Source of the DNA: Moorella humiferrea
Lineage (GTDB): Bacteria > Bacillota > DSM-521 > Neomoorellales > Neomoorellaceae
Length of the DNA: 64,000 bases
Direction: 5' to 3'
Assembly (NCBI RefSeq): GCF_039233145.1
Contig: NZ_CP136419.1
Coordinates: 222,001 to 286,000, forward strand
The notes under the pieces were generated by a model. The model was not told the origin of the DNA. It made no database searches and saw only the letters and a list, made by a program, of their open reading frames with translations. Below, in pieces: positions 13,655 to 17,275 of this stretch. The position numbers and the translations under genes are program-made. Within the stretch, counting starts at the first letter, position 1; each line of letters begins with the position of its first letter.

Positions 13655-16600
13655 GTGTTGCCGTTTATCGCCGATCTCCACGTCCATTCACATTACTCCC
13701 GGGCCACCAGCAGAGACGCCACACCGGAGAATTATTACCGCTGGGCCCTTTATAAAGGCGTCACCCTGGTGGGCAGTGGCGATTTTACCCATCCTGCCTG
13801 GCGGGAGGAGCTGAAAAATAAACTGGAGCCGGCCGAGGAGGGCCTTTACCGCCTGAAGGAGGAATTCTGCCGATTGGTAGAGGAAGAAGCGGCCGCCGCG
13901 GGACACCCGGTCGTCCGGTTTGAGGATCCTATCATTGACGAAAACGGGCGCCCTTTGGTGCGCTTTATCATAACCGGGGAAATTAGCTGCATTTATAAAA
14001 AGGGCGGTCGTACCCGCAAAGTCCACCACCTCATCCTTCTTCCCAACCTGGAGGCGGCGGAAGCCCTCAGCCGCCGCCTGGAGGCCCTGGGCGGCAACCT
14101 CCAGGCCGACGGGCGGCCGATCCTGGGACTGGACAGCCGTCACCTCCTGGAGGTAACCCTGGAGGTATGCCCGGAAGCCGTATTTATCCCGGCCCACATC
14201 TGGACTCCCCATTTTTCCCTCTTCGGGGCCAATTCGGGGTTTGACGGCATTGAAGAGTGTTTCGCCGACCTTTCCGGCCACATCTATGCCGTGGAAACGG
14301 GTCTTTCCTCCGACCCCCCGATGAACTGGCGCCTTTCCGCCCTGGACCACCTTACCCTGGTTTCCAATTCCGACGCCCATTCCCCGCGGCACCTTGCTCG
14401 TGAAGCCAATATTTTTACAACGGAGCTTTCCTATCCGGCCGTCCGCCGGGCCCTGCAGGAACGGAAAGGCAATGGTTTTTTGGGAACCCTGGAGTTCTTC
14501 CCGGAAGAAGGCAAATATCACTACGACGGCCACCGCGCTTGCGGCGTCTGTTGGGCGCCGGCGCAGACGCGGGCGGCTGAAGGGGTGTGCCCGTCTTGCG
14601 GCCGTAAAGTAACCGTCGGCGTCCTCCACCGCGTCGAGGTCCTTGCCGACCGCCCGGAAGGTTTTCGTCCCCGGGACGCCCGCCCTTACGAGAGCCTGGT
14701 CCCCCTGCCGGAACTGTTGGCGTCGGCCCTGGGCGTAGGCGCCGCTTCTAAAAAAGTAACCTCCCTTTACTTTGACTTGCTCCGCCGCCTCGGTCCGGAA
14801 CTAATGATCTTGCGCAGGGCGCCTCTGGAAGCCGTAGCCGGAGCGGCCGGGCCCCTGGTGGCCGAAGCCGTTCGGCGCATGAGGGCCGGCGAAGTAGAAA
14901 GACGGCCCGGTTATGACGGCGAATACGGGAAAATCATCTTAATGCGCCCGGAGGAAAGGGAGTATTTTAACGGGCAGGCCGTCCTATTTGGCGAAGCCGG
15001 GAAAAATGCTGCCGCGGCTGCAGACGGCGCCTGCCGGGAGGGTGCGGATACGACGGGGAACAAGGTCCTGGCGGCGGTGGAGGAAGGGAAAGCCCCGGTA
15101 TATCCTGCACCGGCGCCGGTTTCCGGTAGCAAAGAAGGCCTGCCGGTTGCGTTATCGGCGCAGCCGGGCTCTCTCCTGGACGGGCTTAATGAAGAACAGC
15201 GGCAGGCAGTAGCCGCCTCAGGAGGCCCCGTGATTGTCCTGGCCGGGCCGGGGACGGGCAAAACGCGTACCCTGGTCCACCGTCTGGCCTATTTAATAGG
15301 GGTGCGGGGCGTCGCCCCCGGCAGGATTACAGCTGTAACCTTTACCAATAAAGCGGCCGCCGAGATTCGCCAGCGCGTATCAGAATTGCTGAGTGGGTAC
15401 GGAGCGGCGGCAGATTTGACCATAGGCACCTTCCACGGCATCTGTTTGGATTTGTTAAGGAAGCTGCTGGGTATCCCGCAGACCCCGACGGTGCTGGACG
15501 AGATTGATGCCGGAAGCGTTCTGGCGGAAGTCCTGCGGGAAATGGCGGACGGCCCTTCCAGACAGGTCTTAAGGGTGCAGCGGCAGATTTCCTTACTGAA
15601 GAGCCGCGGCCTGCTTCCCGCTTCACCGGGGGTTCCGGAGGACCTGCGCCCTGTGTACAAAGCTTATCAGGAGCGACTAGCGCAGTACGGCGTCCTGGAT
15701 TACGACGACATCCTCCTTCGGACGCTGGACTGCCTCGAGGATTGGAAGGTGAAAAATCTTCTAGACCGCTTTGACCATCTCCTCGTTGATGAATTTCAGG
15801 ATGTCAATCCCGTCCAGTACCGGCTGGTCAAACTCTGGGCAGGCAGCGGGTCTAATCTTTTCGTCATCGGCGACCCCGACCAGGCCATCTACGGCTTTCG
15901 CGGGGCCAGCAACCGCTTTTTCCGTAAACTTCAGGAGGATTTTCCGACGGCCCGGGTTTTCCGCTTGACCCGCAATTATCGCTCCACGCCCGCCATCCTC
16001 AGGGCGGCCGGGGCCTTAATCGCCCACAACTATAAAACGGGCGGGGGCATCTCGGCGGAAACCCTGAAGTTTGTCCCGCAGGACGCCGGCGATGAAGGCA
16101 TTACCCCTGAACCCCGGGCCCTTTTGGCCGTGAGGGGAGACGGTCCGCCCGTGGTGCACCTGGAAGTCCCCGGCGAGACGGCGGCGGGCATTGCCATCGT
16201 CAGGGAAATCGGCCGCCTGGTAGGGGGTGTCACCATGCTCCAGGCCCACGAACGCAAAAGGAAAGTTGGGGCGGCGGTCCCGGCCGATGGGGAAGGCGAG
16301 GGCTTCGGTTTGGCCGATATAGCCGTCCTGGCCCGGACGGGGCGCCAGCTGGAGTCCCTGGAAGAATGTTTCCTACAAGAGGGTATACCTTACCGCTTAA
16401 TAGCCCGCGAAAGCTTCCTGGAAGATCGGGCGGTACGGGAGGTCCTGGCCTTCTGCCGGTGCCTGGTCGCGCCTGAAGACGATTTCCATGTTTATCGCTG
16501 TTTATCCAGCGGTCTTTTCGGTAAGGGTAAAAGGACAATCACCCTGGTGCGGGAGGCGTCCGGGCGCTGGCACTGCACGGCCTGGCAGGCCGTTGAAAGG

Positions 16601-17275
16601 TTAACGGCGGGGGAAGGCAATGGGGCAGACTTAAAAGTTTTGCAGGCCTTTAAAAAGGCCGTGACAACCTGGCGCGGGGCAATGGAACTGGAGCCCCCGG
16701 CCCGCCTGCTGGCCCGTTGGATGGAAGATTATATACCTCGCAAAACAACGGCCCTGGACCGCCTGTTGCGGTTGGCGGAGCGCTTCAACGACCTCGGGTC
16801 GTTTTTGCAGGGCATCATCCTGGCGGAGGAAGGGGATCATGAACGCTGGAGCAGCAACGCCGCTCAGGAAGCGGTGAGCCTGATGACCATCCACGCCGCT
16901 AAAGGTTTAGAGTTTCCCGTGGTCTTTATTGCCGGTGTGGAAGACGGGCTGCTGCCTCTAAAGGAGCGCTGCGGAGCCCCATCGGAGGGAAAAGACCTTT
17001 GCGGGGTTCTCCCGACGGCCGGGGAAGCCGCATTGGGAGGGGAAGACGCTCTGGCCGAGGAACGCCGCCTTTTCTATGTGGGACTTACCAGGGCGCGGGA
17101 GAGGCTCATCCTGGTATCCTCCCGCAGCCGCACCGTTGCCGGCCGCAAAACGCCTTCCCGTCCTTCGCCTTTTCTGGAGGAAATACCGGCAGATTGCCTG
17201 GAGATGCAGAGCTGGACCGGAAAAAAGAGAAGTAACAAGGAAGTAGAGGCATATAAGCAATTGACCCTGTTTTAG
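13655..17275 (+). CDS. EndoQ-UvrD fusion: PHP endonuclease Q plus SF1A helicase
   Basis: A 1206-residue fusion. Residues 1 to about 285 are a PHP domain with metal-binding DLHVHSHYSRATSRD, SGDFTHP, PAHIWTP and SNSDAHS. A zinc finger (about residues 294-320, CGVCWAP and CPSCGR) and a helix-hairpin-like tail follow. PHP plus zinc finger is the endonuclease Q plan, known for cutting 5' of deaminated bases. After a variable linker (about 445-510), a UvrD/PcrA helicase fills the rest: AGPGTGKTRT, LLVDEFQDVNP, IGDPDQAIYGFRG, LTRNYRST, TIHAAKGLEFPVVF and LFYVGLTRARERL. All helicase motifs and PHP ligands look intact. GTG start, AGGT about 10 bases upstream. A nick-and-unwind role is inferred. Confidence 0.88.
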   Translation: MLPFIADLHVHSHYSRATSRDATPENYYRWALYKGVTLVGSGDFTHPAWREELKNKLEPAEEGLYRLKEEFCRLVEEEAAAAGHPVVRFEDPIIDENGRPLVRFIITGEISCIYKKGGRTRKVHHLILLPNLEAAEALSRRLEALGGNLQADGRPILGLDSRHLLEVTLEVCPEAVFIPAHIWTPHFSLFGANSGFDGIEECFADLSGHIYAVETGLSSDPPMNWRLSALDHLTLVSNSDAHSPRHLAREANIFTTELSYPAVRRALQERKGNGFLGTLEFFPEEGKYHYDGHRACGVCWAPAQTRAAEGVCPSCGRKVTVGVLHRVEVLADRPEGFRPRDARPYESLVPLPELLASALGVGAASKKVTSLYFDLLRRLGPELMILRRAPLEAVAGAAGPLVAEAVRRMRAGEVERRPGYDGEYGKIILMRPEEREYFNGQAVLFGEAGKNAAAAADGACREGADTTGNKVLAAVEEGKAPVYPAPAPVSGSKEGLPVALSAQPGSLLDGLNEEQRQAVAASGGPVIVLAGPGTGKTRTLVHRLAYLIGVRGVAPGRITAVTFTNKAAAEIRQRVSELLSGYGAAADLTIGTFHGICLDLLRKLLGIPQTPTVLDEIDAGSVLAEVLREMADGPSRQVLRVQRQISLLKSRGLLPASPGVPEDLRPVYKAYQERLAQYGVLDYDDILLRTLDCLEDWKVKNLLDRFDHLLVDEFQDVNPVQYRLVKLWAGSGSNLFVIGDPDQAIYGFRGASNRFFRKLQEDFPTARVFRLTRNYRSTPAILRAAGALIAHNYKTGGGISAETLKFVPQDAGDEGITPEPRALLAVRGDGPPVVHLEVPGETAAGIAIVREIGRLVGGVTMLQAHERKRKVGAAVPADGEGEGFGLADIAVLARTGRQLESLEECFLQEGIPYRLIARESFLEDRAVREVLAFCRCLVAPEDDFHVYRCLSSGLFGKGKRTITLVREASGRWHCTAWQAVERLTAGEGNGADLKVLQAFKKAVTTWRGAMELEPPARLLARWMEDYIPRKTTALDRLLRLAERFNDLGSFLQGIILAEEGDHERWSSNAAQEAVSLMTIHAAKGLEFPVVFIAGVEDGLLPLKERCGAPSEGKDLCGVLPTAGEAALGGEDALAEERRLFYVGLTRARERLILVSSRSRTVAGRKTPSRPSPFLEEIPADCLEMQSWTGKKRSNKEVEAYKQLTLF

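Follow-up and report, generated by a model that had tools for sequence, protein, structure and literature searches.

The 64,000-nucleotide stretch of Moorella humiferrea DNA analyzed here (contig NZ_CP136419.1, positions 222,001 to 286,000; hereafter, the window) contains a gene at positions 13655–17275 that joins an endonuclease Q (EndoQ)-like nuclease to a UvrD-type helicase on one chain, as a preliminary description made from the sequence had claimed. The best explanation of this architecture, and one that we consider probable, is that the product is a clamp-tethered, single-chain alternative-excision-repair enzyme. Each module is already known; no description of an EndoQ-UvrD fusion was found in the open-licence literature searched, which does not prove novelty in print.

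Architecture of the fusion

The gene and the parts of its product map to the window as follows:

13655..17275, +: EndoQ-UvrD fusion gene, 1206 amino acids, GTG start, no internal stop; same architecture in 65 or more intact homologs
13655..14944, +: EndoQ-like half, residues 1–430 (PHP catalytic, zinc and C-terminal helical domains), assigned by PDB match and predicted model
13679..14380, +: PHP metal ligands H9, H11, D43, E109, H124, H181, D240 and H242, and pocket residues G216 and S218
14531..14599, +: zinc finger H293-C296-C312-C315, equivalent to C249-C252-C268-C271 of PfuEndoQ
14972..14989, +: internal clamp-binding-like motif GQAVLF, residues 440–445, a QxxhF-type motif conserved among fusions
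15029..15166, +: disordered linker, residues 459–504, predicted local distance difference test score (pLDDT) <50
15173..17227, +: UvrD-type superfamily 1A (SF1A) helicase, residues 507–1191, assigned by Pfam, motifs and Foldseek; motif I at residues 531–537, II (DEFQD) 712–716, III 739–751, V 1078–1088, VI 1135–1148
17258..17272, +: C-terminal putative beta-clamp-binding motif QLTLF, residues 1202–1206, assigned by motif conservation in fusions

A chance or assembly-artefact fusion is ruled out. In a sample of 398 genomes of the phylum, searched with a profile of the Moorella EndoQ half, all 7 other genomes of the genus encode the protein in one open frame (1209–1273 amino acids). The single-frame fusion also recurs in dozens of other genera. 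Neither GC content nor GC content at third codon positions (GC3) shifts between the two halves. The full-length predicted model comprises two folded parts, the disordered linker at residues 459–504 and a disordered tail from residue 1192; the mutual placement of the halves was not read from this model, for which the predicted template-modelling score (pTM) is 0.61.

The nuclease half follows the EndoQ plan

The N-terminal half matched PfuEndoQ (5zb8) over query residues 6–68 and 120–429 (E = 7e-51, phmmer against the PDB) and the TIGR00375 model at E 1e-47. Its separate predicted model (pLDDT 89.7, pTM 0.90) recovered 5zb8 and 7k30 in Foldseek (E 2e-39, TM 0.9) and aligned with DNA-bound PfuEndoQ (7k30) over 391 of 395 residues with a Z score of 47.3 and a root-mean-square deviation of 2.6, whereas the next best PHP protein reached Z 15, PolX proteins 7.0–7.3 and HisK proteins 6.3–6.4. 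As modeled, this half displays the complete EndoQ family fold, that is, PHP, zinc-binding and C-terminal helical domains. Assignment to a different PHP clade of the PolX or HisK type, a check that the preliminary description itself had proposed, is rejected by a wide margin (Z 6–7 versus 47.3), and the EndoQ plan is borne out by sequence, predicted fold, and catalytic and pocket residues alike.

The eight metal ligands, previously noted as intact, and the two pocket residues are identical in all 103 members of the phylogenetic group that includes the fusion (clade B; 81 fusions and 22 standalone or split members). Their PfuEndoQ equivalents are H8, H10, D42, E76, H84, H139, D193 and H195 for the ligands and scissile-site residues, with E109 equated to E76 by position as this PfuEndoQ stretch is missing from the alignment, and G169 and S171 for G216 and S218. 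Residue roles in PfuEndoQ were taken from a review, and the pocket check was restricted to the residues quoted there; H139, G169 and S171 are reported to keep T and A out of the base pocket (PMC8307549). The equivalents of these three (H181, G216 and S218) are invariant in 103 of the 103 clade B sequences. The zinc finger claimed earlier retains all four candidate ligand positions, but as H-C-C-C (H293, C296, C312, C315) rather than the four cysteines of PfuEndoQ, with metal binding predicted from the sequence.

The helicase half is of the UvrD type but is not PcrA

The second half matched PF00580 (2e-67), PF13361 (4e-38) and PcrA (1pjr, 5e-92), and the best Foldseek match to its model was the UvrD-DNA complex 2is6 (E 3e-48). 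Motifs Q, I, Ia, II, III, IV, V and VI of SF1A are all present, which bears out the description of a complete UvrD-type helicase with intact motifs. The earlier label “UvrD/PcrA” holds for UvrD but not for PcrA itself: the PcrA equivalog model TIGR01073 scored 401 bits, below its cut-off of 911, with the match ending at position 651 of 725, and the C-terminal region of PcrA, which contacts RNA polymerase, is absent. A separate 729-amino-acid PcrA is encoded in the host genome, and, in a phylogenetic tree, the fusion helicases and two unfused partners split from the PcrA proteins of relatives with full support.

Two putative clamp-binding motifs

The preliminary description had missed the clamp motifs of the fusion. 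A terminal Q-x-x-hydrophobic-aromatic/aliphatic motif lies within the last 20 amino acids of 81 of 83 fusions, most commonly as QLSLF and usually 5–9 residues from the protein end; a slightly narrower pattern matched 1.7% of shuffled tails and none of 30 PcrA proteins of relatives. The standard bacterial beta-clamp-binding consensus is QL[S/D]LF or QxxLF (PMC12309361). QLTLF of the Moorella protein combines this consensus with a disordered (residues 1192–1200 ahead of it, pLDDT <50) and terminal position, as expected of a predicted clamp binder. All three unfused or split helicase open reading frames found also carry a terminal motif (QMGLF in L111, QASLF in L167, QLSLF in L055).

The internal QxxhF-type motif follows the EndoQ half in 72 of 79 fusions (GQAVLF in Moorella), at the site where unfused Nitrospirota members of the clade end, for example with KGQSLLF immediately before the stop. 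In thermococcal EndoQ, a C-terminal PCNA-interacting peptide (PIP) box mediates both binding to PCNA and stimulation by it, and clamp motifs have been noted in bacterial EndoQ (PMC4858679). We propose that the clamp tail of the ancestral EndoQ survived as an internal motif after the helicase was joined on, and that the helicase either came with a clamp motif or acquired one. Separately, the family-4-like uracil-DNA glycosylase (UDG) of the host (L160:1438-2019) ends with QREQLSLEFEV, resembling a clamp-binding tail.

Spread and phylogeny of the fusion

EndoQ relatives were detected in 205 of the 398 phylum genomes, so that the earlier statement, in which known EndoQ was largely confined to Thermococcales and a few bacteria, was too narrow. 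The profile scores split sharply: about 62 hits, mostly single frames of 980–1360 amino acids, scored 570–807 bits, against at most 148 bits for ordinary standalone EndoQ, the only intermediate scores coming from two fragments of a single gene. At least 593 relatives were found in a scan of GTDB genomes; the best 80 of these include at least 65 closed full fusions, and within these 80 the fusions come from Bacillota, Gemmatimonadota, Chloroflexota, Latescibacterota, KSB1, Spirochaetota and Elusimicrobiota. The phylogenetic spread, another proposed check, is thus very wide and not local. No relatives of the fusion were found in the viral contigs, phages or plasmids searched.

The tree of the EndoQ half contains three well-separated groups, namely, PfuEndoQ, clade A (standalone bacterial EndoQ) and clade B, with both bacterial clades fully supported and a long branch setting clade B apart. 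Identity is 34% between PfuEndoQ and clade B, 35% between PfuEndoQ and clade A, and 29% between clades A and B, so clade B is about as near the founding EndoQ as clade A. Standalone members are scattered within clade B, which suggests, as far as can be read from a quick tree, repeated loss of the helicase. In the Nitrospirota locus L111, a 423-amino-acid EndoQ ending in KGQGTLF is separated by a 9 bp gap from a 650-amino-acid UvrD ending in PQMGLF; in L167, the halves are adjacent genes 48 bp apart, with a possible frameshift there. Some genomes (L161, L162, G278 and G324) have, besides the fusion, a further EndoQ copy from the same clade that lacks a helicase.

A proposed nick-and-peel mechanism

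The preliminary description proposed that nicking and unwinding are physically joined in one repair enzyme, an idea supported by the architecture, predicted fold and conserved residues. Under the mechanism we propose, the C-terminal QLTLF, and perhaps also GQAVLF, would dock the enzyme on the beta sliding clamp. The EndoQ half would then flip out uracil, hypoxanthine or an apurinic/apyrimidinic (AP) site and cut 5' of the lesion, leaving a 3'-OH, as predicted from homology to PfuEndoQ and the conserved catalytic and discriminating pocket residues. After such a nick, the downstream strand would carry the lesion at its 5' end, and the 3'-OH would lie upstream. SF1A UvrD-type helicases have 3'-to-5' polarity; the UvrD half would load onto the intact strand where the nick lies and move downstream, away from the 3'-OH. 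The lesion strand would thereby be displaced as a 5' flap, and a clamp-bound polymerase would meanwhile extend the 3'-OH. Here the polarity is that of the SF1A family, the geometry follows from our reasoning, and the coupling of the two activities is what we infer. Finally, Pol I would extend the 3'-OH, its 5' nuclease would trim the flap, and ligase would seal the strand. That the halves stay joined across phyla, each forming its own clade, counts in favor of this mechanism, as does the adjacency of the separately encoded halves in L111 and L167.

The repair repertoire of the host bears on the substrate. EndoV, Aag and AlkA are the three usual hypoxanthine-repair enzymes. The host genome encodes a family-4-like UDG, Nfo and Nth, and none of the three was found in it; for AlkA, this result is based on the only HhH-GPD protein encoded there, which has an iron-sulphur cysteine cluster and is Nth-like. 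Very few genomes of the phylum have EndoV (7 of 398), and none of these 7 contains an EndoQ relative (hypergeometric P = 0.006 across the 398 genomes, relatedness uncorrected). The fusion is a candidate hypoxanthine-repair enzyme for this genome, where EndoV, Aag and AlkA were not found. More broadly, we tentatively suggest that it might be a widespread, self-contained, clamp-recruited “nick-and-peel” enzyme for deaminated bases and the main hypoxanthine-DNA route in anaerobes without these three enzymes. The bacterial step after the EndoQ nick is not settled, and the helicase, joined to the nuclease with clamp tags across hundreds of species, some of them gut Clostridia, is a candidate next player; because the helicase and the clamp tags are attached to the nuclease, the post-incision step becomes directly testable.

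Several points weigh against the proposed mechanism. The fusion clade is about 34% identical to PfuEndoQ, and the Moorella EndoQ half scored 163.3 bits against TIGR00375, short of the equivalog cut-off of 326.6 bits, which just 2 of the 398 phylum genomes exceed; by this score, the fusion is not filed as a TIGR00375 equivalog. Throughout clade B, the zinc ligand Cys249 of PfuEndoQ is replaced by His (H293), and the PfuEndoQ loop 234–241 (NAGLDPRL) is replaced by TxEFFPEE. We know of no assayed member of the fusion clade. Clamp binding is inferred from motif conservation, some standalone clade B members have neither helicase nor clamp motif, and the EndoV exclusion comes from 7 genomes, three of them from one family.

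The replaced loop and the zinc Cys that is now His indicate that specificity may have shifted; the clade is a divergent EndoQ branch, which makes altered specificity possible. On this alternative, the nuclease half would still be a lesion endonuclease, but its main targets would be lesions other than deaminated bases, such as AP sites, oxidised pyrimidines or some other modified base. This might be reflected in the long branch separating clade B and in eight clade-wide substitutions at sites that are shared by PfuEndoQ and the standalone bacterial enzymes (N234T, G236E, L237F, L241E, F141W, L168T, A177N, C249H). Yet the equivalents of H139, G169 and S171 and all metal ligands are invariant, and we regard this alternative as unlikely while still giving it real weight. 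With pocket and ligands unchanged in spite of the two clade-wide changes, the substrates are probably those of EndoQ, though this is not certain.

The order of events might also be reversed, with UvrD opening DNA at the clamp, at stalled forks, R-loops or transcription bubbles, and EndoQ scanning the exposed single strands. Deaminated bases form faster in single strands, EndoQ cuts uracil and hypoxanthine in single-stranded DNA (PMC6202378; PMC11354406), and clamp motifs would put the enzyme at forks; however, no conserved partner or neighborhood points to forks or transcription, and the PcrA C-terminal region with its RNA polymerase contact is missing, which makes such a helicase-led scheme quite unlikely. 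It is improbable, too, that the halves are fused for co-expression only and work independently, uncoupled. Several lineages have dropped the helicase and retain the EndoQ half, and the linker is flexible, as this would predict, but across phyla the clade consists predominantly of fusions, the fusion helicases group apart from PcrA in a clade of their own, and clamp motifs occur both before and after the helicase.

A role as a nuclease-helicase that defends against phages or mobile elements, with uracil-containing phage DNA as one possible target, is very improbable and was rejected: a review suggests that bacterial EndoQ may also serve antiviral defense (PMC8307549) and the UvrD half scores against GajB-type defense models, but scores of this kind are common to UvrD-superfamily proteins in general, no defense model matches the EndoQ half, and the fusion, absent from the viral contigs, phages and plasmids searched, is kept through the genus in a housekeeping uvr cluster.

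Genomic neighborhood

The fusion gene is surrounded by the following genes:

10835..12829, +: uvrB (PF12344/PF17757), 0.8 kb upstream of the fusion
12852..13328, -: PIN-domain (VapC-like) gene (PF01850) separating uvrB from the fusion, kept in two genus relatives
17291–21306: PocR-type AraC regulator, major facilitator superfamily-like transporter and methyltransferase-like gene, between the fusion and uvrA
21440..26425, +: uvrA and uvrC, 4.2 kb and 7.2 kb downstream of the fusion, respectively

The uvrABC neighborhood emphasized in the preliminary description is real at the Moorella locus, but the functional meaning attached to it is not supported. The order uvrB-PIN-fusion-uvrA-uvrC is complete in one same-genus genome, and in the genus relative L047 uvrA and uvrC directly follow the fusion, so the 17291–21306 block was either inserted in the Moorella window or lost in L047. 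Only 2 of 80 relatives have uvrB nearby, one of them of the same genus, it is absent from the stretches examined in two further genera of this family, and no operon conserved across the clade was found among the loci of relatives. A functional role of the uvrABC cluster beyond the genus is thus rejected, the linkage being essentially genus-only. Elsewhere, a yaaA-like gene abuts or overlaps the start of the fusion in 3–4 loci of Clostridia (L061, L078, L116 and others), and an nth-like gene lies beside EndoQ in 2–3 loci.

Comparison with known systems

With EndoQ (PfuEndoQ 5zb8/7k30 and Bacillus pumilus EndoQ), the fusion shares the fold, PHP ligands, pocket residues, zinc domain and clamp/PCNA tail; it differs in its roughly 34% identity, separate clade, Cys249-to-His change and replaced loop 234–241, and adds a helicase of about 690 residues after the clamp motif. 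The thermococcal EndoQ-PCNA complex (PMC4858679) likewise places EndoQ on a sliding clamp via a C-terminal motif, whereas the fusion has two motifs of the bacterial beta-clamp type, with predicted clamp docking, and a covalently attached helicase. All helicase motifs and, by structure match, the fold are common to the fusion and the SF1A 3'-to-5' helicases UvrD and PcrA; in contrast to PcrA, the fusion helicase belongs to its own clade, has no PcrA-type C-terminal region, carries a terminal clamp motif, is fused to a nuclease and coexists with a true PcrA. AddA and RecB are likewise single chains that pair a UvrD-type helicase with a nuclease, but their nuclease is a C-terminal PD-(D/E)XK end-processing domain, whereas that of the fusion is an N-terminal PHP domain and a predicted lesion endonuclease.

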